From Chrysemys picta bellii (taxonomy: Eukaryota; Chordata; Testudines; Emydidae), in contig NC_088799.1 in NCBI RefSeq assembly GCF_011386835.1, positions 73,117,302 to 73,181,301 of the forward strand: 64,000 bases of DNA, in the 5' to 3' direction. Positions 12,002-55,500 of this stretch are shown piece by piece. Each line of letters opens with the position of its first letter. The first letter of the stretch is position 1. A program made the translations under genes and the position numbers. The notes below the pieces were generated by a model, which was not told the origin of the DNA, ran no database searches, and saw only the letters and a program-made list of their open reading frames with translations.

Positions 12002-13708
12002 TTATTTACATAGTTTAGTCCTATTCGTGTCTACTCGGAGCTTCTTGGCTTGTCTCTTGTATTCATTAAATGGAGCATCTCTTGTCACTGTCCAGCAATA
12101 GTCTGCAAGCATTGATGGGCTCCATTTGCCCTGACAGCGTTTCTCCATTGTTGCAATGTCCTGTGGAAATCGCTCGCCATGCTTGTCGCTCACTGCTCCG
12201 CAGTTCGGTGGAAAAAAATCTAGATGAGAGTGCAAAAAATTTCTCTTTAGTGACACGTTGCAACCAAGGCTTTTGTATGCCTCGAGGAGGATTCCACCAA
12301 CAACCTGTAGTTGTCTGCCTTTTTGTTTCCGAGAAAATTTATTGCCACTAACTGGAAGGCTTTTCATGCCGTGTTTTCCTTGCCACGCAGTACCATGGTC
12401 ATGTCGAAGAAGTTCACGAATCTGAGGACCAACAAAGACATCTTCCTTTATCTTAGCTTCACTTAACCTTGAAAATTTTCCACGGAGGTACTTGAAAGCA
12501 GCTTGTGTTTTGTCAATGGCCTTGACAAAGTTCTTCATCAGACCCAGCTTGATGTGTAAGGGTGGTAACAAAATCTTCCTTGATTCAACAAGTGGTGGAT
12601 GCTGAACACTTTTCCTCCCAGGCTCCAATGACTGTCGGAGTGGCCATTCTTTCTTGATGTAGTGGGAATCTCTTGCACGACTGTCCCATTCGCAGGGAAA
12701 ACAGCAGTACTTTGTGTATCCAGTCTGCAGACCAAGCAAGAGAGCAACAACCTTCAAATGGCCACAAAGCTGCCACTGATGTTGGTCATAGTTTATGCAC
12801 CTCAAAAGTTGTTTCATGTTGTCATAGGTTTCCTTCATATGGACTGCATGACCAACTGGAATTGATGGCAAAACATTGCCATTATGCAGTAAAACAGCTT
12901 TAAGACTCGTCTTCGATGAATCAATGAACAGTCTCCACTCATCTGGATTGTGAACGATGTTGAGGGCTGCCATCACACCATCGATGTTGTTGCAGGCTAC
13001 AAGATCACCTTCCAGGAAGAAGAATGGGACAAGATCCTTTTGACGGTCACGGAACATGGAAACCCTAACATCACCTGCCAGGAGATTCCACTTCTGTAGG
13101 CTGGAGCCCAACAGATCTGCCTTACTCTTGGGTAGTTCCAAATCCCTGACAAGGTCATTCAGTTCACCTTGTGTTAGGAGGTGTGGCTCAGAGGAGGAGT
13201 ATGGGAGAAAATGTGGGTCCTGTGACATTGATGGCTCAGGACCAGAAGTTTCATCCTCTTCCTCTTCCTCATCTGACTCAAGTGAGAATGATTCTGGTGC
13301 ATCAGGAACCAGCAGTCCTTCTCCGTGGGGTACTGGGCATATAGCTGATGGAATGTTTGGATAATGAACAGTCCACTTTTTCTTCTTTGACACACCTTTC
13401 CCAACTGGAGCATCATGCAGAAGTAACAATTGCTGTTATGATCTGTTGGCTGTCTCCAAATCATTGGCACTGCAAAAGGCATAGATTTATTTCCTTTTCC
13501 TGTTCAATCTCTGGCGAAGATTTGTTGCACAAGTGTTGCAGCATATGTGTGGGGCCAACCTCTTGTCCTGATCTCCAATTTTGCAGTCAAAATAAAGGTG
13601 ATAGGCTTTCTTAACCATTGTGGTTATACTGCGTTTTTGTGATGCAAAAGTCACTTCACCACAAACATAGCAGAAGTTATCTGCACGGTTCACACAAGTA
13701 CAAGGCAT
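12002..13708 (-). pseudogene. Decayed gene of an unnamed animal transposase-like family (N-terminal Cys motifs, WDSR and GERF motifs)
   Basis: I recognise this as a family of uncharacterised proteins common in arthropods, hydra and vertebrates and probably transposon-encoded; I know no accepted name. The start is ATG at 13706-13708, giving an N-terminus with FCYVCG (C13, C16) and HICCNTC, probably a zinc-binding module. A 1-nt gain near 13483-13489 makes a TAA and shifts frame; the next segment carries MPFAVPMIWRQPTDH and CYFC. A second shift near 13405-13430 enters a 475-codon frame that ends at 12002. That frame has an acidic run (residues 52-60), EWRLFIDSS (164-172), LCGHLKV (221-227), YTKYCCFPCEWDSR (238-251), PPLHIKLGLMKNFVKA (289-304), FVGPQI (332-337), SHLDFFP (401-407) and GERFPQDI (418-425). 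Residues about 343-379 are out of the ancestral frame, which itself contains a TGA at 12364-12366. The copy is inactive. Confidence 0.78.
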
Positions 13709-14004: not shown

Positions 14005-14660
14005 TTAGTCATTTCTGGTTTAAATTGAGATCCCTTCCCTTTATAACTCACTTATCCTCCGCCATTCCCAAGTCAAGGGTCGTATATACTGACCCAATAG
14101 CATATCTTGAAAACTAGAGCCAATCAAGAATTTTAAGCCTCATTTTCGTTCTCAGTGACCCAGAATTAGTAAAGTTTGACTACATTTATTTCAGAAGCAT
14201 TTTGGCTGTAGAGCAGTGTAATTTTACATCTACAGCATTCTTGCAGAAGAGTAAATCAGGGTTCTTAAGCTAGGGACAATCAATAAGCATCATGAAACAG
14301 TGAACTTCTAAAATTATGTGAAATGTACATGGATGCTATACTAACAAGCTTCAACTTTTCCTAATCTTTTTGGCCTTTAAGTTATGGGTTACAAAAAAAC
14401 CCAACAACATGCAAATAGAGATTTGAAAAAGAAAATTTGATTGTCATGCTTTTTTTTCATTTTAAAATATTTGTGTTCAGATTCCTATATTATGTAACAG
14501 AACAATGGAAAATAATGACCAATGTAACCGAAAGTTGATATCCTATACTACAACTTTGTTTGGTTAGACACCATTTATATATGTGTAACATCATGGATGT
14601 GACTGTGTAACTTCATTGTGTATTGAAAGTTTTAGATGCTTCTTGAAACTGTGATGCTAA

Positions 14661-14945
14661 GGCCTTGGCTACACTTACCCGCTAGTTTGGCGGCTGGCAA
14701 TCGAACTTCTGGGTTCGACTTATCGCGTCTAGTCTGGACGCGATAAGTCGAACCCGGAAGTGCTCGCCGTCGACTGCGGTACTCCAGCTCGGCGAGAGGA
14801 GTACCGCGGAGTCGACGGGGGAGCCTGCCTGCCGAGTGTGGACCAAGGTAAGTTCGAACTAAGGTACTTCGACTTCAGCTACGTTATTCACGTAGCTGAA
14901 GTTGCGTACCTTAGTTCGAATTAGGGGGGTAGTGTAGACCAAGCC
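14661..14945. mobile_element. Harbinger-type miniature element made of three hairpins
   Basis: A 285-bp GC-rich element lies between TAA duplications at 14658-14660 and 14946-14948. Ends are GGCCTTGGCTACACT and the inverted GGCTTGGTCTACACT. The interior is three consecutive imperfect hairpins: 14705-14729 with 14737-14761 (24 of 25 positions pair, 7-nt loop); 14767-14818 (about 20-bp arms); and 14853-14884 with 14890-14920 (about 30-bp arms, 5-nt loop). There is no coding capacity. A TAA duplication and such ends fit mobilisation by a Harbinger transposase. It is related, in opposite orientation, to 52211-52515. Confidence 0.85.
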
Positions 14946-25675: not shown

Positions 25676-27141
25676 CAGGGGTCGGCAACCTTTCAGAAGT
25701 GGTGTGCCAAGTCTTCATTTATTCACTCTAATTTAAGGTTTTGTGTGCCAGTAATACATTTTAACATTTTTAGAAGGTCTCTCTCTATAATATATAACTA
25801 AACTATTGTTGTATGTAACGTAAATAAGGTTTTTTTAAATGTTTAAGAAGCTTCATTTAAAATTAAATTAAAATGCAGATCTTATCAGTTTAGTGTGATC
25901 CTTCCCCTTGCTTTTCCTTGCTGAGTTTTCCAATGTCTGGCACATATTTGGATAGTTTAAGCTGCACACAGGCTTCTGAGAGATCAGTTGTTAACTGGCT
26001 CCGAGAGAGACAGAGGACAGATTTCATGTGTGAAAATACCTGTTCACACAGGTATGTAGATCCAAATGCTGAAAGCATTGCAAATGCAATTTTCTTCAAA
26101 CAGTTAAATTTCACTGTCAGGGACGTCCAGCAGGTCAGAAGAGAGGGCCAATGATCTCTTTCGGTAGCTTTAAGTGCACTCCGCAGATTTTCAATCTTTG
26201 ATGCCCACAATTCTGAGCTTTTTAACTGAATGAGCTGCATTTCGAAATCTTCAACACCCATCCACTTAAATACAGACAATTCCAAGTAGTTTTCATTGAA
26301 CTTTTCAGGTTTAATTAGAAAAGAAAGTGTTGGGCCAAATCGCTGGAAATCTTGAAATCTGTCAGAAAATTCTGATTCCAGTTCTTGTATGTACATTCCA
26401 GTCTCATCGACACTGACAGTGCAACGTGTTGATAGCTCTTTTCTGTGTTGGAAGTAGCAGAAAGTCGAAGTTCGAATATCCCGAGAAAAAACTGCTAGTT
26501 TTACAACAAATGCCTTCCAGATTTCATAAAGATCCAGAACTGTTTGCCCTGCACCCTGGAGACAGAGGTTGAATTCGTTTACGTGAGCGGTGATGTCAGT
26601 TAGAAACATGAGCTTACACAGTCATTTGTCATCATCCAGTTCGGGGTAGTTTTGTCCTTTTTCTGACAAAAAGGCCTTGATTGCATCAAAACAGTTTACA
26701 AAGTGCACCAAAACCTTGCCATGACTTAGCCACCAAATGTTGCTGTGAAGTGAAATGAATGGGCATCTAACTTTGCTTTCTTAGGAGCTGACATTTTGTC
26801 AAATGTACCCCTCAACTTACAGTGTGGCAAAAAATTGCTACAGACGGCATGCACAGTGTCAAACGCAAATGTGCTGTACAACATGACATGATAGTTATGT
26901 AGGCAGCAAATCAGGACTTAAAAATATCCTAGTACAGTGGTGCTGGGACAATTTTTAAGGTGGGCTGAGCTGCAGTGGGCCACAGCTGGGGACGGCTGCA
27001 GAGCCCCGGCCCGGCAGCCGGGATCCCAGGATGGCAGCAAAGCGCCCGGGACTGGTGGCCGGGACCCGGGCAGTGTGAGTGCCACTCAAAATCATCTTGC
27101 ATGCCGCCTTTGGCATGAGTGCCATAGGTTGCTGATCCCTG
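25676..27141 (-). mobile_element. Internally deleted hAT (Charlie-like) transposon nested in CR1
   Basis: Ends CAGGGGTCGGCAACCT and inverted CAGGGATCAGCAACCT match at 14 of 16 positions. The 8-bp duplication is imperfect: CCTGAGAC on the left (25668-25675) and CTTAGAC on the right (27142-27148). Both derive from the CCTTAGAC expected from the interrupted CR1, one by substitution and one by loss of a C. The interior keeps the 3' part of a transposase gene; near the right end a GC-rich block (about 26975-27070) resembles hAT miniature elements. The element post-dates the CR1 it sits in. Confidence 0.83.
25890..26760 (-). pseudogene. hAT transposase, C-terminal half, dead
   Basis: The minus strand encodes the end of a hAT transposase: NIWWLSHGKVL (about 26700-26741), FDAIKAFLSEKGQ, then FLTDITAHVNEFNLCLQG, and the C-terminal dimerisation region LKKIAFAMLSAFGSTYLCEQ (residues 171-190 of the 239-residue open frame at 25890-26609) followed by VFSHMKS. 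This arrangement resembles the Charlie group that also gave rise to the C-terminus of vertebrate GTF2IRD2. hAT transposases cut out elements carrying matching ends and act as multimers through this domain. An in-frame TGA at 26622-26624 stands where Trp is expected before LCKLMF, and the N-terminal half with the BED finger and first catalytic residues is missing. It cannot be functional. Confidence 0.82.
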
Positions 27142-28237: not shown

Positions 28238-29436
28238 AAGGGCTGAGGTTCTAGACACCCATCAGAAATACCAGATATTGTGCAACCAAGGCGATAGCTT
28301 ATTGTCTTTCCAATAAATCCTAGTATTCTTAACAGGAATGCTTTTCAAAATGTATCTTTATGGTATACTATTTAGTTAGAATATTGCCATTTCAGGAGAA
28401 GGCTGCACATTTTAATTATTTCATTAAAGGTTGTGAGATCACATTATTTCTGATCCCCAAAATGGCCTTTCCTTTGTTGTTGGCACCCATTTTAGTCGAT
28501 ATCAGGGAATATATTGTGTTTAAGCTGAATTGAAATTCTGCACCAAGGGCCCTGGACTCTGTGGCAAGCAGGTGTAGCAGGATGGAGATTCTAAGGCAGC
28601 TTGCTTTACATTTAAAAAAAAATTAAGTTTTTAATTAATGAAATAATAAAATAATCAATGCAGTCAATACTAGACCCCCTTGTTTTTTTAATGTTAAAAT
28701 TCAATTTGGTTTTAGGCACTATAACAAGGGTTTTCAAATACTTGAGATTTTAGCATTGGCAATGAATAACTTTGTTTCAGAAGCAGTCATGGGGAAACGG
28801 GAGTCTTTGGAACCTGGGGAGATTGAGTGTGGGATAAAAATGTTAGCCAGATGGTGTTTCATGCTGTTTCCACACTGAAAGGCATTGCTGCATGAATTTA
28901 TGTGGGGCTGATATTTGAAACATTTTTTTTTAAAAGCTTATCAAGTGAACAAATTCCATCACTGAGACACAAGAACTTTGGGACAAATTGCTGGTGGTTT
29001 TTTTGGTTGCTTTTAAGGTTGTTTTCTGAGTGAAAGGACTATTTTCTTCAAACTTGGCTTTTTTAATAGATCTCACTGTTTTGTAGATCTTACTGGTAAA
29101 TTTTTGGAAAGCTTTTGTGTTAAGTGGCCCTCTAATCAGGTTTGCAGATTCAGCAAAGTGAATTAGTTGACAGATGTGAGCAGCTCCATCAGCTAATCTT
29201 GCAAACACGTAATTAAGCTGTGACTGACATGTGAATGCATACCTGTATTTTACCTAATTTTAAAAGCTGGAAAGTATAGAGTTGTGATGCATTAGAGGTT
29301 TGCAGATTGTGGCAACTATGGTTTGCATAATGTGGACAAAAGGAACGTTTTTAAATGTTTCCTTTTTAGAAGTTAGTAAACATTTTTAAGACAAATGTAA
29401 TTGTCCTTTTCCTAATTGTGTAAAAGTTAGAATTAG
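28238..29436. other. AT-rich stretch, no gene
   Basis: No coding similarity, RNA gene or bounded repeat was recognised between the SINE and the target duplication of the PLE. A 92-codon open frame at 28930-29208 (minus) has no recognisable motif. Confidence 0.5.
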
Positions 29437-29488
29437 ATGTATTTTTCTGAAAAGTTTCAGAGTAGCAGCCGTGTTAGTCTGTATCCGC

Positions 29489-29942
29489 AAAAAGAAGAAC
29501 AGGAGGACTTGTGGCACCTTAGAGACTAACAAATTTATTAGAGCATAAGCTTTCGTGGACTACAGCCCACTTCTTCGGATGCATATAGAATGGAACATAT
29601 ATTGAGGAGATATATATACACACACAGACAGAGAGCATAAACAGGTGGGAGTTGTCTTACCACCTCTGAGAGGCCAATTAATTAAGAGAAAACAAACTTT
29701 TGAAGTGATAATCAAGCTAGCTCAGTACAGACAGTTAGATAACAAGTGTGAGAATACTTACAAGGCGAGATAGATTCAATGTTTGTAATGGCTCAGCCAT
29801 TCCCAGTCTTTATTCAAACCGGAGTTGATTGTGTCTAGTTTGCATATCAATTCTAGCTCAGCAGTTTCTCGTTGGAGTCTGTTTTTGAAGTTTTTCTGTT
29901 GTAATATAGCCACCCGCAGGTCTGTCACTGAATGACCAGACA
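29489..29942 (-). repeat. PLE inverted repeat, left arm (pairs with 31463-31916)
   Basis: Reading base by base, this arm is the exact reverse complement of 31463-31916 over 454 bp with no indel; I found no mismatch. It covers the last part of the GIY-YIG reading frame, its stop codon and the 3' UTR, including AGAGACTAACAAATTTATTA. Confidence 0.92.
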
Positions 29943-31299
29943 GGTTAAAGTGTTCTCCCACTGGTTTTTGAGTATTTTGATTCCTGATGTCAGATTTGTG
30001 TCCATTAATTCTTTTGCGTAGAGACTGTCCGGTTTGGCCAATGTACATGGCAGAGGGGCATTGCTGGCACATGATGGCATATATCACATTGGTAGATGTG
30101 CAGGTGAACGAGCCCCTGATGGTATGGCTGATGTGATTAGGTCCTATGATGATGTCACTGGAATAGATATGTGGACAGAGTTGGCATCGGGGTTTGTTAC
30201 AAGGATAGGTTCCTGGGTTAGTGGTTTTGTTCAGTGATGTGTGGTTGCTGGTGAGTATTTGCTTTAGGTTCGGGGGTTGTCTGTAAGCGAGGACAGGTCT
30301 GTCTCCCAAGATCTGTGAGAGTAAAGGATCATCTTTCAGGATAGGTTGTAGATCTCTGATGATGCGCTGGAGAGGTTTTAGTTGGGGGCTGAAGGTGACA
30401 GCTAGTGGTGTTCTGTTATTTTCTTTGTTGGGCCTGTCTTGTAGGAGGTGACTTCTGGGTACTCGTCTGGCTCTGTCAATCTGTTTTTTCACTTCAGCAG
30501 GTGGGTATTGTAGTTTTAAGAATGCTTGATAGAGATCTTGTAGGTGCTTGTCTCTATCCAAGGGATTGGAGCAAATGCGGTTATATCTTAGGGCTTGGCT
30601 GTAGACAATGGATCGTGTGGTGTGTCCTGGATGGAAGCTGGAGGCATGTAGGTAAGTGTAGCGGTCAGTAGGTTTCCGATATAGGGTGGTATTTATGTGA
30701 CCATCGCTTATTAGCACAGTAGTGTCCAGGAAATGGACCGCTTGTGTGGATTGATCTAGGCTGAGGTTGATGGTGGGATGGAAATTATTGAAATCATGGT
30801 GAAATTCCTCAAGGGCTTCTTTTCCATGGGTCCAGATGATGAAGATGTCATCAATGTAGCGCAAGTAGAGTAGGGGCGTTAGGGGACGAGAGCTAAGGAA
30901 GCGTTGTTCTAAGTCAGCCATAAAAATGTTGGCATATTGTGGGGCCATGCGGGTACCCATAGCAGTGCCGCTGACTTGAAGGTATATATTGTCCCCAAAT
31001 GTGAAATAGTTGTGGGTGAGGACAAAATCACAAAGTTCAGCCACCAGGTTAGCTGTGACATTATCAGGGATACTGTTCCTGATAGCTTGTAGTCCATCTT
31101 TGTGTGGAATATTGGTGTAGAGGGCTTCTACGTCCATAGTGGCCAGGATGGTGTTTTCTGGAAGATCACCGATGGATTGTAGTTTCCTCAGGAAGTCAGT
31201 GGTGTCTCGAAGATCCCACTGAGGATTACCTAAAGAAACTACACCATCTGCTAAAAAAACTCCCTGACAAAGCACAGGAACAAATCTGTACAGACACAT
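29776..31299 (-). CDS. Penelope-like reverse transcriptase with C-terminal GIY-YIG endonuclease, chimeric N-terminus
   Basis: A 507-residue open frame. Reverse transcriptase motifs: MDVEALYTNIP (55-65, motif A), SGTAMGTRMAPQYANIF (110-126, motif B), YLRYIDDIFIIW (145-156, motif C with the YIDD catalytic core) and VHFLDTTV (188-195). A Cys cluster CNKPRCQLC (367-375) precedes the GIY-YIG nuclease: VIYAIMC (405-411), YIGQTGQSLRKRINGH (419-434) and GEHF (448-451). RT plus GIY-YIG is the hallmark of Penelope-like elements, which nick a target and copy their RNA there. The frame has no stop or shift from residue 30 to the end. Residues 1-28 are not PLE protein: they come from the antisense of the inverted A segment, so the ATG at 31297-31299 is accidental. 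The 5' RT part (with LPKIHKP) is on the opposite strand, so no full enzyme can be made from this locus. Confidence 0.88.
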   Translation of the reverse strand: MCLYRFVPVLCQGVFLADGVVSLGNPQWDLRDTTDFLRKLQSIGDLPENTILATMDVEALYTNIPHKDGLQAIRNSIPDNVTANLVAELCDFVLTHNYFTFGDNIYLQVSGTAMGTRMAPQYANIFMADLEQRFLSSRPLTPLLYLRYIDDIFIIWTHGKEALEEFHHDFNNFHPTINLSLDQSTQAVHFLDTTVLISDGHINTTLYRKPTDRYTYLHASSFHPGHTTRSIVYSQALRYNRICSNPLDRDKHLQDLYQAFLKLQYPPAEVKKQIDRARRVPRSHLLQDRPNKENNRTPLAVTFSPQLKPLQRIIRDLQPILKDDPLLSQILGDRPVLAYRQPPNLKQILTSNHTSLNKTTNPGTYPCNKPRCQLCPHIYSSDIIIGPNHISHTIRGSFTCTSTNVIYAIMCQQCPSAMYIGQTGQSLRKRINGHKSDIRNQNTQKPVGEHFNLSGHSVTDLRVAILQQKNFKNRLQRETAELELICKLDTINSGLNKDWEWLSHYKH

Positions 31300-31547
31300 G
31301 CCTAGAACCCCGACCAGGGGTATTCTATTTGCTACCTAAGATCCATAAACCTGGATATCCTGGACGCCCCATCATCTCAGGCATTGGCACCCTAACATCA
31401 GGCTTGTCTGGTTATGTAGACTCTCTCCTCAGACCCTACGCTACCAGCACTCCCAGCTATCTTGTCTGGTCATTCAGTGACAGACCTGCGGGTGGCTATA
31501 TTACAACAGAAAAACTTCAAAAACAGACTCCAACGAGAAACTGCTGA
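31212..31547 (+). pseudogene. PLE N-terminal RT segment fused out of frame to the GIY-YIG end
   Basis: From 31218 the plus strand reads TEDYLKKLHHLLKKLPD, then GVFYLLPKIHKPGYPGRPI and SGYVDSLLRPYATSTPSYL. This is the RT segment that directly precedes the minus-strand core, whose first true residues are LRDTTDFLRKL. At 31463 it jumps to the C part (a SGHSVTDLRVAILQQ coding sequence, present in a different frame), so the 72-codon frame that begins at 31329 ends in nonsense residues at 31547. The C part keeps its own frame to the normal stop near 31627. It is a rearranged fragment without function of its own. Confidence 0.83.
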
Positions 31548-31916
31548 GCTAGAATTGATATGCAAACTAGACACAATCAACTCCGGTTTGAATAAAGACT
31601 GGGAATGGCTGAGCCATTACAAACATTGAATCTATCTCGCCTTGTAAGTATTCTCACACTTGTTATCTAACTGTCTGTACTGAGCTAGCTTGATTATCAC
31701 TTCAAAAGTTTGTTTTCTCTTAATTAATTGGCCTCTCAGAGGTGGTAAGACAACTCCCACCTGTTTATGCTCTCTGTCTGTGTGTGTATATATATCTCCT
31801 CAATATATGTTCCATTCTATATGCATCCGAAGAAGTGGGCTGTAGTCCACGAAAGCTTATGCTCTAATAAATTTGTTAGTCTCTAAGGTGCCACAAGTCC
31901 TCCTGTTCTTCTTTTT
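31463..31916 (+). repeat. PLE inverted repeat, right arm (pairs with 29489-29942)
   Basis: Reverse complement of the left arm over 454 bp. It lacks the terminal 39 bp or so that the left arm has outside the repeat, and abuts the target duplication directly at 31917. At its inner end it joins the A segment at ATCTT (31459-31463), which is inverted relative to AAGAT at 31210-31214. Confidence 0.92.
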
Positions 31917-31929
31917 ATGTATTTTTCTG

Positions 31930-34900
31930 TTTCAAATGTGTTTTATAATGTGTATATACAGTTTGTACTCAGATACACAATTTTATGAAGTGTAATTTAT
32001 AGCTATTTAATTACATTTACCTACACTAATACACAAAATCCTAGATTTACTTTATTAACTATTAAACAGATGCATTCAGCTTTCTGATTTTTACAGAAGT
32101 TATTTAGCTGAGCATGAGCCACACACTTCAGATCAAGGTCAAACTCCAAGAGTGTTGAGACCTGGTGTTCAGTTTGGCCTTGTCTCTATTTATAATATGT
32201 GTATTGCTTCCCCTTAAAAATTTTAGTTTACCAATGTAAACTGGAAGCTGTGACTAGATATGCGAAGGTAAGTGACTTCACTTTAACAAATTTAATCACT
32301 TGCTATTAGTAAACAGCTTGAGGAAGACTATTGAAAAAAAATCTAATTTATCAAGTGATATACTACAGTATGCAACACTGGAAAAAAAGGGAATATTTTA
32401 AACCAAATATAGGGCTTTAGTACAAGATTAACATTTTGCATAAAATGTGCCTGTTTTAAAGTGTTGGCTTCAGGGAGCCAAAGTAAGTCTAAAGTTTAAA
32501 CCATGGTAAAATACTACCCTCTGCTGGCATTCTAAAACTCTCTTTTCTTAGCTGTCTTTATAGTCTCTCTGAACGCTCTGTATTCAGTGTGAGAGAAGCT
32601 GTTGTTTGTAGTTCATGGCCGTCTTAAATATTGTGTATCACCTATTGTTTCTAAGAAGAAAATTTCTGTAAGTCAATTTGCAGAGCTAGTAATATATTTA
32701 AGTTTCAGATCATATTAGACAGAAATCATATACTGATCACTTAGTTAAGCAGAAGCAATGAAGAATCAGATATATTTGATGCAGTTGTATGTTTATCAGA
32801 TTAAATGTGATTATTTAATGTAAATTCTTGATAAGAAGATATAGATATAATTAGGAAGAATTTAAAGGATCTATGTTTGAGCTGGACTTTAACCTGTATA
32901 AGAGACACTCACCTTTTTGGCTGACAGTGAATTTATCCATTGTCTGTGTCCTGAATAGTCATTCCATTGTGAAATAGCACAGCCTCTTCAATAGTACTGC
33001 CAGAGAATTAAGCAATTTTGTTGTCTTTATTGTAGCTTTTTCTGGTATAGACAACCTGATTTCATTCATAGTATTAACTGAGATCTAGAGGTCTGGGTTT
33101 AAAAGTTTCTTTTCTAAGAGAGAGCTGCTTTCATATTCAGAGGAGTAATGTACTTACATTTTATCACTTCCCTTTTAGTTACAGAATGTGCTGTGAATTT
33201 TGTTTTTTGTTTTTGTTTTTCTTTTGTAGACAATGTATAAGGCGCTGGAAAGTGTGAGCTTGGGGTATGCATACCAACACAGGGAAATAAATGCATTGTT
33301 AATTTGTCTCTGTTATGATTCATTTGGGAAGCTATATTATTTGGCAGTTCTAGTCTCAGTAAAAATTTGTAGTCACTGACTAAAGGGATGGTGAAAATGG
33401 ATAATCAAGTACATCACAAGAGTATCCCTTTGAGGAACTTTAGTTGTCAGGGCTAGGTTTATTTGGTAAGAAAAAGCTTTGCATTAGAATTCTCATCATC
33501 ATCTTCTGGTTTTGGGGTAGAACATTTCTTTAACTACCATCTTGACTTGAGAGACGCTTTATATGTAGAAACTGGCCGGCTCTCTTAAGAGATGCAAAAC
33601 CTGATTTATATTTTCCTTTTATTAATGTTTTATGATTTTGCACTGTTATGTTAACAATATACCTGATAAATCTGATTATTTTCTACAGAAAATAAACAGC
33701 TTGTATCCCTCTTCAGATCTAACACTGTTTTATTCTGAAATGCTCACTACAAAGCATCTATCATGATTCATGATCTAGTCTGTGGCTTTTTGTAAACATT
33801 CTTTCCTATATTTTGTGACACTTCTATAATGAATCATCAGGCATGAAAAATGTACATTGTCATACACTAACACTAAAGAGTCGCTAAAGTAATAGGTTAC
33901 TATTCTGATTGCCATAAAACAGAGCCAGTCAAGATGACACAGTATGTTGCATAGTATATATGCTGACAAGTACAAATTATCATATGTCGCTTCCAAGGGG
34001 GTTGATTCATTAACCTGTGGAAATCTATAGCAAGCCTCCTATTTATGTCATGAGTGCTTTAGTTTTTAACACATTTCCCCTTTGACTGGCACTGAAGTGA
34101 AAGGTGATACAGCACCAGGCTGAGCACACCTCTCCCTGGATCTGCAGCTTTCTAACATGAGGTACTGAAAAACTGGAGTAACTCAATAGTGAATCAGACA
34201 TTGCTTTCCAGATTAATAAAAACCTTGATGGGAAACCTTTGGGACTTTGGTTTGCTTGAGCAGCCAAAACTGGAAATAGGGGGAAAACAAGACATGTTTA
34301 CAATGTTAGACTTGCTCTTTTTGGAAAACAATGATCCAATGCATTATCAAGCTGTATTTGGTACTGTATCAATTAATCATACCTATGTAGTGATTTATTT
34401 CTTGCTTGCATATGTTTTCATGAGACACTATAACCATTTTGTACTTGACAGATTGTTTGGGTTGGGACTTGTCACGGGAAAAAGTCAATTAAAATTTGAA
34501 AAGACTTTTTATAGAATTTTAGTCACCTGGCCCCTAATGTGGAGAGTGATTAACCTTTGAAAATGATAAATTAAGATGGTAACTCCTTTGAAATGTCCTA
34601 ATGGCAACCAGATTGGGTGTTGGTAAACATGGCAGAGTACCTAAGTATCTTAACCTGATGATGAAAACATTGACAGCAGCCTCTGCCAACCATAAAGGAA
34701 TTGATTTCTACAGAATTTTGTGGTCCTAATCCTCAGAGGGAGGGGTTGGAAGTCAAAAGACAAGCCAAGAAAGAGATTGGTAGAATCTGAACTCTCTGGA
34801 CTGAGAACAACCATTTGTTCTACTAATCTTTAGCCTTTGAGACTTAGCCTCATAGCCAACAGTACCACATCTCTTCACAGCCTGAGTCTAGACAAGAGTA

Positions 34901-36969: not shown

Positions 36970-36983
36970 GTAGCCTTCTAAAC

Positions 36984-37191
36984 AGAATGAGAAGTCCAGT
37001 GGCACCTTAAAGACTAACAGATTTATTTGGGCATAAGCGTGTTTGGGTAAAAAACCCACTTCTGCAGAAGTTTTTTTAAACACGAAAGCTTATGCTCAAA
37101 TAAATCTGTTAGTCTTTAACAGATTCTGTTAGCCACCGGACTCCTCATTGTTTTTGTCGATACAGACCAACACAGCTACCCCTCTGACACT
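36984..37191. mobile_element. Second PLE tail fold-back, older copy
   Basis: Left arm from GAGAAGTCCAGTGGCACC (36989) and right arm ending GCCACCGGACTCCTC (37146) are inverted copies of a PLE 3' end of another subfamily, sharing AGACTAACAGATTTATTTG and GCATAAGC. The right side continues through GATACAGACCAACACAGCTA (37160-37179), the terminal part. Flanks GTAGCCTTCTAAAC (36970-36983) and GGTACCTTATAAAC (37193-37206) look like a degraded target duplication. A local duplication of TCTGTTAG replaces a few bases in the right arm. No coding sequence. Confidence 0.75.
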
Positions 37192-37206
37192 TGGTACCTT
37201 ATAAAC

Positions 37207-44402: not shown

Positions 44403-44717
44403 TAGGGGTCCGCAACTTCTGGCACACGGCTCACCAGGATAAGCACCCTGGCGGGCCGGGCTAGTTCGTTTACCTGCTGCATCCGCAGGTTCAGGTCTCA
44501 CTGGCCGTGGTTCGCCTATGGGAGCTGCTGGAAGCTGCGGCCAGCACATCCCTCGGCCCACGCCACTTCCCGCAGCCCCCATTGGCCTGGGACGGCAAAC
44601 CGCTGCCAGTGGGAGCCGTGATCGGCCAAACGTGTGAACGCGGCAGGTAAACAAACTGGTCCAGCCCACCAGGGTGCTTACCTTGGCGAGCCACGTGCCA
44701 GAGGTTGTCAACCCCTG
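44403..44717. mobile_element. hAT-type miniature element inside CR1, without target duplication
   Basis: 315 bp, GC-rich. Left end TAGGGGTCCGCAACTTCTGG and inverted right end CAGGGGTTGACAACCTCTGG match, and the similarity continues through GGCACACGGCTC, GGTAAGCACCCTGG and the GTTTACCTGC block shared with 1507-1835. Flanking 8-mers do not agree; the adjoining CR1 sequence shows a deletion of roughly 130 bp, so one side was probably lost with the duplication. No coding capacity. Confidence 0.8.
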
Positions 44718-44895: not shown

Positions 44896-45868
44896 TTACT
44901 TTTCCTCATAAATCAGATTTTGTAAGCCTTTTATCATTTTTGTTGCTCTCCTCTGTAGTCTGTCAATTTTTTCCACATCTTTCTTAAAACATGGCACCCA
45001 GAACTGGTCACAGTACACCAGATGAGGTGTCATCAGTGCTAGGTAATGCAGGACCGTTACCTCCTGTGCCTGACATGAGATACTCCCATTAATACACCCC
45101 AGAATGGTAAGCCATTTTCGAAACTGCCTCACATTGTTGACTCTCTCGTTCAATTTGTGATCCTCTATAACCCCAAATCCTTTTCAGCAGTACTACCTGT
45201 AGCCACTTTTTTCTCCATTTTGCAGTTGTGCATTTGATTTTTTTTCTTCCTAAATGGAGTACTTTGCACTTGTCTATACTGAATTTTGTCTTGCTGATTT
45301 CAGTCCAATTCTCTTACTTGTCGAGGTCCTCTTGAATTTTAATCCTATCCTCCAAAGAGCTTTCAACCCCTCCCAGCTTGGTTTCCACCACAAATTTTAT
45401 AAGTATATTTTTCACTCCATTATCCAAATAGTTAATAAAAATATTGCATAGTACCAGACCCAGGATTGACACCCTCCACCTTCCCATGGGACCCACTAGA
45501 TACATTCTCCCGGTTTGACAGTGGGCTATTGATAAGTAATATTTAACTACAAACTTTCAGCCAGTTGTGGATCATTTCATCTAGACTGCTTTTCCCTCAT
45601 TTTGCTTATGAGAATGTCATGTGGGACTGTCAATAACCTCACAAAAAACAAAATATATATCACATTTACATCTTTCCCCCAATCTACTACATTAGTAACC
45701 CTGTCCAAGAAGGAAATGATGTTGGTTTAGCACGATTTGTTCTTGACAAGTCCATGCTGACTATTCCTGATAACCCTATCATCCTTTAGGTGCTTACAAA
45801 CGGATTGTTTAATAATTGTTCCCGTATCTTTCTGTGTATCTAAATTAAAGTGACTGGTCTATAATTCC
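44896..45868 (-). pseudogene. CR1 ORF2 remnant (end of RT domain and C-terminus)
   Basis: Minus-strand frames give NKSC*TNIISFLDRVTNVVD (about 45670-45760), the KSCLTNLISFYDRVT-type segment of CR1 reverse transcriptase, followed downstream by LGCINGSISCQAQEV, MTPHLVYCDQFWVPCFKKDV and RRATKMIKGLQNL in the open frame at 44896-45153. Several stops and frame changes separate these pieces. The enzyme would nick target DNA and copy CR1 RNA; this copy lacks the endonuclease and most RT motifs and is dead. Confidence 0.82.
45790..45855. repeat. 66-bp perfect inverted duplication, source arm inside CR1
   Basis: Runs from GTGCTTACAAACGGATTG to CTAAATTAAAGTGACT and is contiguous with CR1 sequence on both sides, so this is the original location. 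All 66 bases recur, reverse-complemented, at 46893-46958. Confidence 0.93.
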
Positions 45869-46819: not shown

Positions 46820-47030
46820 AAACTCCTTTACCAAGGAAGTAAGTACAATTATTCCAGTTTCCCAAGTGGAGAAATTTGTGGGGGAAGTACTAAGTCACTT
46901 TAATTTAGATACACAGAAAGATACGGGAACAATTATTAAACAATCCGTTTGTAAGCACTAAGCGACTAAGTACCCGAAGTCACCCAGCAAATCGGTGGCA
47001 GAGCATAGGATTAAAACCCATATTTGAGCT
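46820..47030 (+). repeat. MIR/CORE-SINE-like fragment split by a 66-bp insert
   Basis: CAGTTTCCCAAGTGGAGAAA (46856-46875) and AAGTCACCCAGCAAATCGGT (46977-46996) followed by GGCAGAGC are neighbouring blocks of an MIR-like SINE body. Between them lies the inverted copy of CR1 sequence (46893-46958), flanked by ACTAAG at 46889-46894 and 46957-46962. Confidence 0.55.
46893..46958. repeat. 66-bp perfect inverted duplication, inserted arm inside a SINE-like repeat
   Basis: Exact reverse complement of 45790-45855, 66 of 66 bases, about 1.04 kb away. It includes bases where the CR1 arm differs from the CR1 form I expect, so it was copied from that CR1 copy and not from another. It interrupts an older MIR-like fragment. 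Confidence 0.93.
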
Positions 47031-52210: not shown

Positions 52211-52515
52211 GCCCTGGTCTACACTGGGGGAAGAGGGAGAAGGGGAATCGATCTAAATTACGCAACTTCAGCAACATGAATAACGTAGCTGAAGTTGACG
52301 TACTTAGATCGACTTACCATTGTGTCTTCACTCAGGTGAGTCGACTGCTGCTGCTCCCCCGTCGACTCTGCCTGCACCTCTCGCGGCACTGGAGTACAGG
52401 AATCAATGGGAGAGGGCTTGGGGGTTGATTTATCGCATCTAGACAAGACACGATAAATCGATCCCCGCTGGATCGATTGTTGCCCGCCAATCCGGCGGGT
52501 AGTGTAGACATCCCC
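52211..52515. mobile_element. Harbinger-type miniature element, relative of 14661-14945 in reverse orientation
   Basis: 305 bp between TTA duplications at 52208-52210 and 52516-52518. Ends GCCCTGGTCTACACT and inverted GGGGATGTCTACACT. Interior blocks AACGTAGCTGAAGTTGACGT (52281-52300), GTCGAC, and a TTTATCGCATCTAGACAAGA hairpin (52430-52449 and onward) occur in the opposite order to 14661-14945. Non-coding. Confidence 0.83.
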
Positions 52516-52518
52516 TTA

Positions 52519-55500
52519 GTGAATCACGAATGCGTCTCTGTACCAAAACATAGTGGTCGGCAATCTTTATTACAGTCTAGACATTTTGTTCAAAGCATAA
52601 ACTAACGCACATTTTTATACTGAGGAGATGGGGATGTCAACAATTCATTAATTGCAAGCCTAACATATTATAATTTATGGAAATAAGAGTTTATCTTTTC
52701 AGAGCCACAAAGTGCTACTGAGGGCCTACTGGCAAAGATACAGCACTGGCGCATGAACTGTAAATTTGCAAAAAAGGACTGGATTGTGTACTACACATAT
52801 TCATTATAATCTTTATTGGGTGGGAGAAGGGAAGGCAAATATGAATTCATGCTATATGTACTTGGAAAATACAGTTTAGAACTTTGTCTTTTCTTTTAAC
52901 CTTATCTCTAGTGTTGTGGCACTATTACGAGATGCAGTAACTTGTTAGTGAGTTGTGTATTTCAGATGCTTGAAGCATATTTTTAATGACTTATTTTAAG
53001 TTCACATATTTCATTTTTTATTCCCAACTGCTTAAATAAGTCTACTTTTTCCCAAATAGTTAAATAGTATTGCAAATACAGAGAGTTGAGATCAGGTCTC
53101 TTTGAAAAAAAGTTTTACTTCCATTGTAACAGAATACATGCATATGATTTTATTACTCAAGCAATACAAAATGCTAATGATAAACTGCTGTGAGACACTT
53201 ATCTAAGTAAAACACGCTATCCTTTGTTTTAAGTGTATATTTATGGTTTTGGGGGGCATCAAAGGAACTAGAGCATATGGAATGTGCGTTAAATAAAGCT
53301 GACATACAACTTGCAGCGTACAGCTTAACATTGCAGGGCTTCCCACAGAAGTGTTAAAAAGAGGGTGGTGGGTTTTTGTTTTTGTTGTTTGTTAGCGTGA
53401 AGAAAATCTTAGTCAATATGAAGTTGTTGAAACGAGAATATACCAAGTTGCTGATATTTATGTTCACTGCAAGCTTTCAATGCATTGTCAGAGTGCTCAT
53501 TTCTGAAATTTTGAAATTAGAAATGAAAATCATCATTTAATCAGTTAGAACTATTTTCTTTTCTGTTACAAGAAAGGCTTTTGGAAAGACTTTGAACTGT
53601 TCTTCCTTTTTTGTTCTAAAACAGAATATAAACTATCTAACAGTAAGTTACAAATAATTGCCATCAAACAACCTGAAAATAAATTATCTCAAGGTGATTG
53701 ATCCTGCTTTGATGAAGTCTGTTCTCAACACTTCCACAGATATGTGCTGTAATTAATCTAATTTAGGAACTGAAGTAGAAGGTTGGAGGATATTTTATAC
53801 TGTATAGGAGTATTTGTAATTGTAGTTAATACTATCAGTTCTTGCTTATTGTTTTGTTAATGGTGGAAACCTTATAAGTTTGGCTGCAATTCTGCAGTAC
53901 ATTCCCATTTAGTAAAATATTTAATATGTGCCTACTAGCTTTAATGAATAGATGGGGACTTAAAAGCCTTCCTGAGGGCAAATGTTGCCATTATTGTAAT
54001 ATAAGGGAGGTGATATTACATTTTATTATTTTGTCTTTAAATTTTTGCTTCCAGTGGTCAGTGTCCAAACTTAGTTACGGTTATAAATTTCCTTTTAATC
54101 TCAATATGCAGGAATCTGTTACCTATAAGACATAGAGCTAAAGACTGCCATCCATACATTCACAACCTCTCATTGATATCCTTGAGAGTTCACTCTGTGG
54201 ATCACAAATCCTGTATAATAGAAACTGTGATGTGAAGTGGTAGCATCAAACTGATCTTCCTATTGTAAATCCTAAAATTGTCACTGTCTTGTATATAGTT
54301 TACATTTTATCTATTTCTCTGTATTTTATTAAATAGCCAAAAAGTGAGTTAGTCTCCCAAAATTTAGGAGTAAATTAATGAGGAATAAATAGATTTCATA
54401 GGAGGATGGGGCAGAGAGGGAGAAACTTTGTCTTATTAAAATTTGGATATTTTCATTGTAGGAGCATATGAATATATATTATAATATAGACTTACATTAG
54501 CATTCTACAGTAATGGTATAGTAGTATCAGAGCACAATAAGTAAATGTGCAGTGTCTGTGGTTGAGTTTTAGGCTGTCTGCTTTCTAAGACCCAGGAAAG
54601 GATGCAGAGTTCAAAATCACTCTCTGTGTAATGGACCCGTAGTTTCCTGGTTTTGAAACCCTGCAGTGAGTCTCTGGTTCATGTTGTAGTTGAGTGGGAG
54701 TTGGAAAGGTTATATTTCATTCTGAAAGGGCAGTTTAGCTACATTGCTCAAATATGCAGAGGTTCATCCATTGTTTCAAATCTTTTTCTTGGTGTGAATG
54801 CCTCAACTAATCAGCGACCTCTCCTTTTTGTGAAAATTATTGGCAGTGCCTGATAGCACCAAGTACATCTGGATTGGATAGGCTGGTTTGAAATCTCTTA
54901 TTATTTCATAGCACTGAAACCGTCTGACTTAATGGGGCTGTTTTTTCCCCTTGGTAACAGAGAATACAAGAAATGGTCTTCACAGATTTCTGTTCTCCAA
55001 CTTCTTTTGATAACTCTGATGATCCATGTTTGAAGATGCAGTACTTGGTGTGGATGGGCAGGCTACTCTTAGATGGTTGTGTTCATTCTTGAAGGAAGTA
55101 GAAGGGTTGAACTTCCAGGACAGCTACGGATACTTCCATCCCTTTATCTGGGCTTCTACTTTTAATGGAATGTAGCACAGTTCCTTTCTTTCTATCCCCT
55201 CCATCCCCCCACAAGCCAACCCATTGCTAGTCAGTATTGATTCTTAGCTGGTGGAGGTGGATTATATTAAATGCATAGGCCATGGTATCATCATTATGGC
55301 TGTGTACCTTGTTCATTATCAAAATGTTATGGGGCAAAATATTATAAAAATTATCTAGCTGACAATTTTTATTTGAATCATAGAATCATAGGGGTAGAAG
55401 GGGTCACAAGGATGAGAGATGCTGGTTAAAACTCCACCCTGACAAAACTGAGGGTGATGCTTGTGGTTAGGGAAAAGTGTTATGAAAGCTTGTTGCGATG

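Follow-up and report, generated by a model that had tools for sequence, protein, structure and literature searches.

Penelope-like elements (PLEs) typically comprise an ORF between direct pLTRs, with an inverted pLTR alongside, and one of the inverted copies may carry a 31-bp tail, according to the portions of PMC3846280 that we draw on here, including its Discussion, which puts inverted-repeat structures down to self-priming on an antisense template. The Poseidon PLE protein of Anolis carolinensis cuts and extends both strands in vitro and prefers AT-rich sites with an ATT motif; reverse transcription starts without apparent difference between the strands, and two adjacent internal start sites bound a ‘tail’ of 30–40 bp (PMC11167929). 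As to how a PLE insertion is completed, the main text of the same study calls the later steps yet to be validated. In L1 twin priming in human, excerpts from PMC12016303 report that the inner cDNA edges lie within 20 bp of each other in 132 of 287 insertions, and that overlaps are present in 44 of 106 germline insertions, with a median of 12 bp and quartiles of 4 and 17. A further L1 process, dual priming, has been proposed on the basis of poly(T) stretches and is called speculative in the part of PMC2837659 that describes it.

Our locus lies in the painted turtle Chrysemys picta bellii (NC_088799.1, 73,117,302–73,181,301; hereafter ‘the window’, the whole 64-kb stretch of DNA that was analysed). 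The insert with its target duplications (TSDs) occupies positions 29437–31929 of the window and has the order C'-B'-A-C. Along the plus strand, a TSD is followed by the tail and C' (minus), B' (minus), A (plus), C (plus) and the second TSD, with the following coordinates:

29437–29449: left TSD, ATGTATTTTTCTG, an exact match to 31917–31929
29450–29488, minus strand: 39-nt 3' ‘tail’, present on the left arm only
29489–29942, minus strand: C', the element 3' end, with the end of the GIY-YIG ORF and the 3' UTR
29943–31214, minus strand: B', the RT and most of the GIY-YIG region
31210–31214: left internal junction, with GAT (or AGAT) common to B' and A
31212–31463, plus strand: A, an upstream RT segment, inverted relative to B'
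31403–31412, plus strand: CTTGTCTGGT within A, occurring again over the A/C junction at 31461–31470
31459–31464: right internal junction, the end of A joined to the start of C with a 1-nt overlap, T
31463–31916, plus strand: C, the second copy of the 3' end, without the tail
31917–31929: right TSD, ATGTATTTTTCTG, 13 bp, exact

The anatomy of the insert is real. A sequence-only reading had placed a 13-bp target duplication around C'-B'-A-C, and this holds: the TSD pair is exact, with 13 matches expected by chance at one fixed position pair at about 6e-8 given the flank base composition, and C' and C are identical at 454 of 454 bp (29489–29942 minus against 31463–31916 plus). A repeat search gave the arm match as 459 at 100% (rounded), extending a few bases into B and A. 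The A-C part carries no TSD of its own, and one 13-bp pair encloses the whole insert. Both outer ends are formed by the element 3' region and differ by the 39-nt tail, the left arm reaching 39 nt further toward the element 3' end than the right arm. The outermost 4 nt of the tail are AAAA on the plus strand and may be added or may belong to the element. Among the variants of a known insertion process this arrangement is an unusual one, represented here by one locus and one copy with this order.

Judged by its domain content and layout, the insert is a Penelope-like element. The minus-strand ORF matches both RVT_1 (43.7 bits, cut-off 29.6) and GIY-YIG (26 bits, cut-off 22.6), and the 13-bp TSD, the 454-bp inverted terminal copy and the 39-nt tail confined to the left arm are Penelope-like traits. 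The RT plus GIY-YIG ORF, inverted terminal copy, short TSD and one-arm tail are shared with Pen2a of Adineta vaga and other elements in the sections of PMC3846280 that describe them. In Pen2a the inverted part is the pLTR, whereas in the turtle locus the inversion reaches into the ORF and holds an RT segment, A, that is absent from the cDNA of the other strand. No direct pLTR copy is present inside the insert, and no hammerhead ribozyme was matched in 28800–32600 at E up to 5; the copy is 5'-truncated, and a direct pLTR copy would be lost with the missing 5' part. The sole match listed in the RNA search of 28800–32600 was a sub-threshold lncRNA model.

Among the protein matches listed, the closest is P0001, a painted-turtle entry, to which A, B and the coding part of C' are together identical at 560 of 561 residues. 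Divergence between the arms has a 95% upper bound of about 0.7%, barring gene conversion. Because the arms are identical and the protein is nearly identical to P0001, the sequence suggests that this copy of the element is young.

The comparison with P0001 also defines the relationship between A and B. The translation of A corresponds to residues 26–109 of P0001 (84 of 84 identical), and translation of the minus strand from 31209 takes up at residue 110; B and the coding part of C' match residues 110–586 at 476 of 477 positions. Since A and B thus cover adjacent residues, they are, at the level of this protein, contiguous in the source element with nothing lost between them, which bears out the earlier claim that A ends and B begins at one point of the element. 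The A-B parts were also contiguous in 69 of 149 proteins in a motif search, the remaining 80 giving no motif match. At the DNA level, A and B overlap by 0–5 bp. Splicing of B from the RNA to give A-C was considered as a separate origin for this part and rejected, because neither way of placing the 1-nt overlap puts a GT-AG pair at the limits of B.

The exact extent of the left joint depends on the codon at 31209–31211, which is GAA at the locus. P0001 has Ser immediately ahead of the first Asp of A, as do 24 of the 37 proteins in which the pattern could be read (3 have Glu there and 10 have other residues); GAA is therefore most likely derived from B', not from A, so that the left joint would share GAT, lengthened to AGAT in the case of a TCA Ser codon. 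The shared stretch thus comes to 3–4 bp at the left joint, and to 1 bp (T) at the right joint. The AAGAT at 31210–31214 and the ATCTT at 31459–31463, which had been interpreted as a 5-bp inverted microhomology at the edges of A, correspond to a single site of the element, met first where B begins and again where A finishes. The pair shows that A and B come together at one point and provides no independent evidence for either a twin-priming-like model or a microinversion.

We consider it probable that the locus records a single PLE insertion in which both target strands primed the element RNA and the right cDNA switched template from C to A. The GIY-YIG enzyme would cut the two strands 13 nt apart to give two 3' overhangs. 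The left overhang would prime the RNA at an outer start site, yielding the tail, then C and then B, and the right overhang would prime at an inner start site about 39 nt upstream, yielding C for about 454 nt without a tail. The right cDNA would then switch template to the A/B border and copy A to its 5'-truncated end. The 3' ends of the two cDNAs could be joined through the 3–4-bp match (GAT/AGAT), and fill-in would produce the duplication of 13 bp. A would lie flush with B because it is the stretch still uncopied by the left RT on a presumed shared template.

The components of this model differ in strength. The TSD, the arms, the uneven tail, the junctions and the abutment of A with B are read directly from the sequence, whereas the two priming events, a common template for A and B, the sequence of steps and the hand-over are deduced from them. 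Two-ended priming is well supported: with a tail on the left and none on the right, the locus fits one putative RT start per strand, and we infer from the two outer ends that both target ends were primed in the element 3' region, as in L1-type dual priming. Inverted 3' ends also occur in a second, decayed copy in the window (about 36985–37195) and in one sea-turtle protein, P0006, both described below, and these cases speak for the model. The hand-over of the template to A is the best explanation for the inner part but is less certain, and the template switch in the right cDNA is an extra demand compared with classical twin priming. Of the two models put forward in the sequence-only reading, the better fit is that of priming at both ends with a jump of one cDNA from C to A. 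The asymmetry of the tail and published PLE biochemistry strengthen it; the 5-bp microhomology drops out as evidence for it.

Poseidon in vitro (PMC11167929) resembles this picture in its cutting and extension of both strands, its two start sites bounding a tail and its AT-rich target. The in vitro work covers cutting and extension only, and its main text contains neither a joined two-ended product nor a template switch. In the lizard element, reverse transcription starts in an AC-rich stem-loop within the beginning of the ORF (PMC11167929), whereas the tail region of the turtle element folds no better than shuffled sequence, being no stabler than shuffles over 81 nt (z 0.32), 39 nt (z −1.36) or 57 nt (z 1.28). 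The model in the consulted part of PMC3846280 is self-priming on an antisense template; the turtle locus agrees with two starts primed from the target, both on sense RNA.

Two oppositely oriented cDNAs within one TSD and abutting edges with an overlap of 0–5 bp are traits of L1-type twin priming, a process that Ostertag and Kazazian are said to have described in 2001, and both are present at the locus. In L1 twin priming, as far as excerpts of PMC12016303 and PMC2912911 describe it, opposite cDNAs likewise lie in one TSD pair; abutting or overlapping edges are frequent between them, as is shared microhomology. By the frequencies in the consulted part of PMC12016303 (inner edges within 20 bp for 132 of 287 L1 insertions, an overlap for 44 of 106 germline ones), abutment such as that of A and B is what two cDNAs on a shared template commonly look like. 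The difference lies in where the inverted cDNA begins: in L1 it starts at the target by internal annealing, whereas A is separated from the right TSD by 454 bp of C. L1 dual priming, in the passages of PMC2837659 that propose it, has both nicks primed at the RNA 3' end and inverted 3' ends at both edges, as here; the two 3' ends of the turtle locus are long, readable sequences, and a switch to A would follow in one of the cDNAs.

The sequence around the proposed switch offers a possible clue to its cause. The breakpoint in C falls at a stretch that matches A over 11 nt with at most one mismatch, a level reached by 7 of 1735 positions, and an exact match as long as the junction-spanning 10-mer, CTTGTCTGGT, exists at 2 of 1735 possible breakpoints. 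This suggests that the cDNA end may have been paired with A at the switch. We treat it as a hint: the 10-bp match was noticed after the fact, and within A it lies 58 nt from the point at which the switch lands, so that it does not directly explain the landing, for which the overlap is 1 nt only.

The leading alternative is an ordinary 5'-truncated PLE that carried an inverted copy of the 3' end at its head (C'-B'-A'-C) and in which A later underwent a microinversion. As the earlier reading had noted, flipping A back gives a contiguous A-B-C preceded by an inverted C, and the restored C'-B'-A'-C layout does match that of other described PLEs; the relevant part of PMC3846280 describes truncated PLE copies that have inverted pLTRs on their flanks. 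The AAGAT/ATCTT pair lies at the edges of A, and inversion partners of this kind are easy to find, since the plus strand of 29450–31463 holds 5 occurrences of AAGAT against about 2 expected. One edge of such an inversion must nevertheless hit the pre-existing C/A junction by chance, which for uniformly placed edges has a probability of 0.2–0.9% at a tolerance of 1–5 bp and 1.7% at 10 bp, and it is this coincidence that makes a later microinversion less likely than a single two-ended event. The element also looks young, leaving little time for later change, and flipping A back would give a seamless junction only with TCA as the Ser codon ahead of A. Overall we regard a microinversion as unlikely. 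Shuffling within the same event, with a C'-B'-A' / C intermediate rearranged by microhomology-mediated end joining before sealing, is compatible with the 3–4 bp and 1 bp shared at the internal joints. It needs a freed A fragment to be rejoined in reverse with no loss on either side, for which a template switch would be the simpler route, and we consider it quite improbable.

Identical inverted arms are a known assembly hazard, and the arms here are 100% identical over 454 bp, so that the arrangement might have been created in assembly. An artefact of this kind appears very improbable in view of the exact 13-bp TSD, of the position of both internal joints, at the edge of the identical arms or beyond it, and of a window with no N and flanks that match nowhere else in it. 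A B-C copy followed by the independent insertion of an internally deleted A-C copy is scarcely credible. A-C taken alone does read as a deleted element, but A and B would have to abut exactly by chance, and we rejected this nested order because there is no second TSD around A-C and the single 13-bp pair encloses both. Priming from both target ends, with a template switch in the right cDNA, remains our preferred reading.

Protein sequences provide a further view of these arrangements. The set of 149 proteins comprises the best 120 of 1095 matches, 11 from another search and 18 new ones from a third. In this set (best 120 of 1095 plus 29), four peptides spanning the inverted junctions, sought as exact strings, occurred in 0 of 149 proteins, which argues weakly against a master element with the C'-B'-A-C order. 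An exact k-mer scan found that 15 of the 149 proteins share a 5-mer with antisense C, and a 7-residue run occurred only in P0006 from the sea turtle Natator depressus; in 50 shuffles, no protein shared a 7-mer. P0006 has 7 residues of antisense tail followed, one residue later, by 5'-truncated A/B. This layout, a single example at the protein level, is as would be expected if the second cDNA were very short. A tblastn search of the 149 proteins against antisense C returned 78 rows, only one of them in the antisense reading (E 0.049) and situated midway along the element's own protein.

With edges that resemble the two RT start sites, one per strand, and an interior that looks as if two cDNAs had split one template between them, the locus ties PLE biochemistry to a genomic product. 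A more general reading, which we put forward tentatively and with some doubt, is that PLE integration may normally be dual target-primed, with two RT units passing the template so that the second cDNA finishes where the first stopped. One RT unit would act on each cut strand, for example within the dimer predicted in PMC11167929, each starting at one internal site, and inverted terminal copies would then arise without self-priming. The arrangement gives a signature that can be counted genome-wide, and we see the locus as a worked example rather than a new kind of element.

Literature pairing ‘Penelope’ with ‘twin priming’ included none on PLE insertions, judged by title, and no printed copies of the repeat sequence were found in the literature searched. 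In a search for relatives among viral contigs, 3 stretches matched a pattern, none of which was confirmed, and a further scan gave 0; among bacterial and archaeal contigs there were 38 such stretches, again with none confirmed, neither collection being meant for turtle DNA.

A decayed PLE relic is recognizable by reading the sequence at about 36980–37196, with two inverted 3' ends and a tail on one arm. It is about 74% self-complementary over 188 aligned positions and has no clear TSD, the longest shared word being 6 nt in the stretches compared.

The window also contains other repeats and open frames. Two related long palindromes at 1512–1830 and 44404–44716, which we presume to be MITE-like, are 85% and 65% self-complementary, respectively, and about 77% alike. 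A related repeat pair at 14657–14919 and 52248–52519 is 74% alike in opposite orientation, and a 66-bp inverted repeat with 100% identity lies at 45790–45855 and 46893–46958, about 1 kb apart. On the minus strand, a 477-aa open frame at 12002–13435 has no Pfam match at E 0.001, and a 243-aa open frame at 25890–26621 gives a borderline match to the hAT dimerisation domain (21.6 bits, cut-off 21.4).
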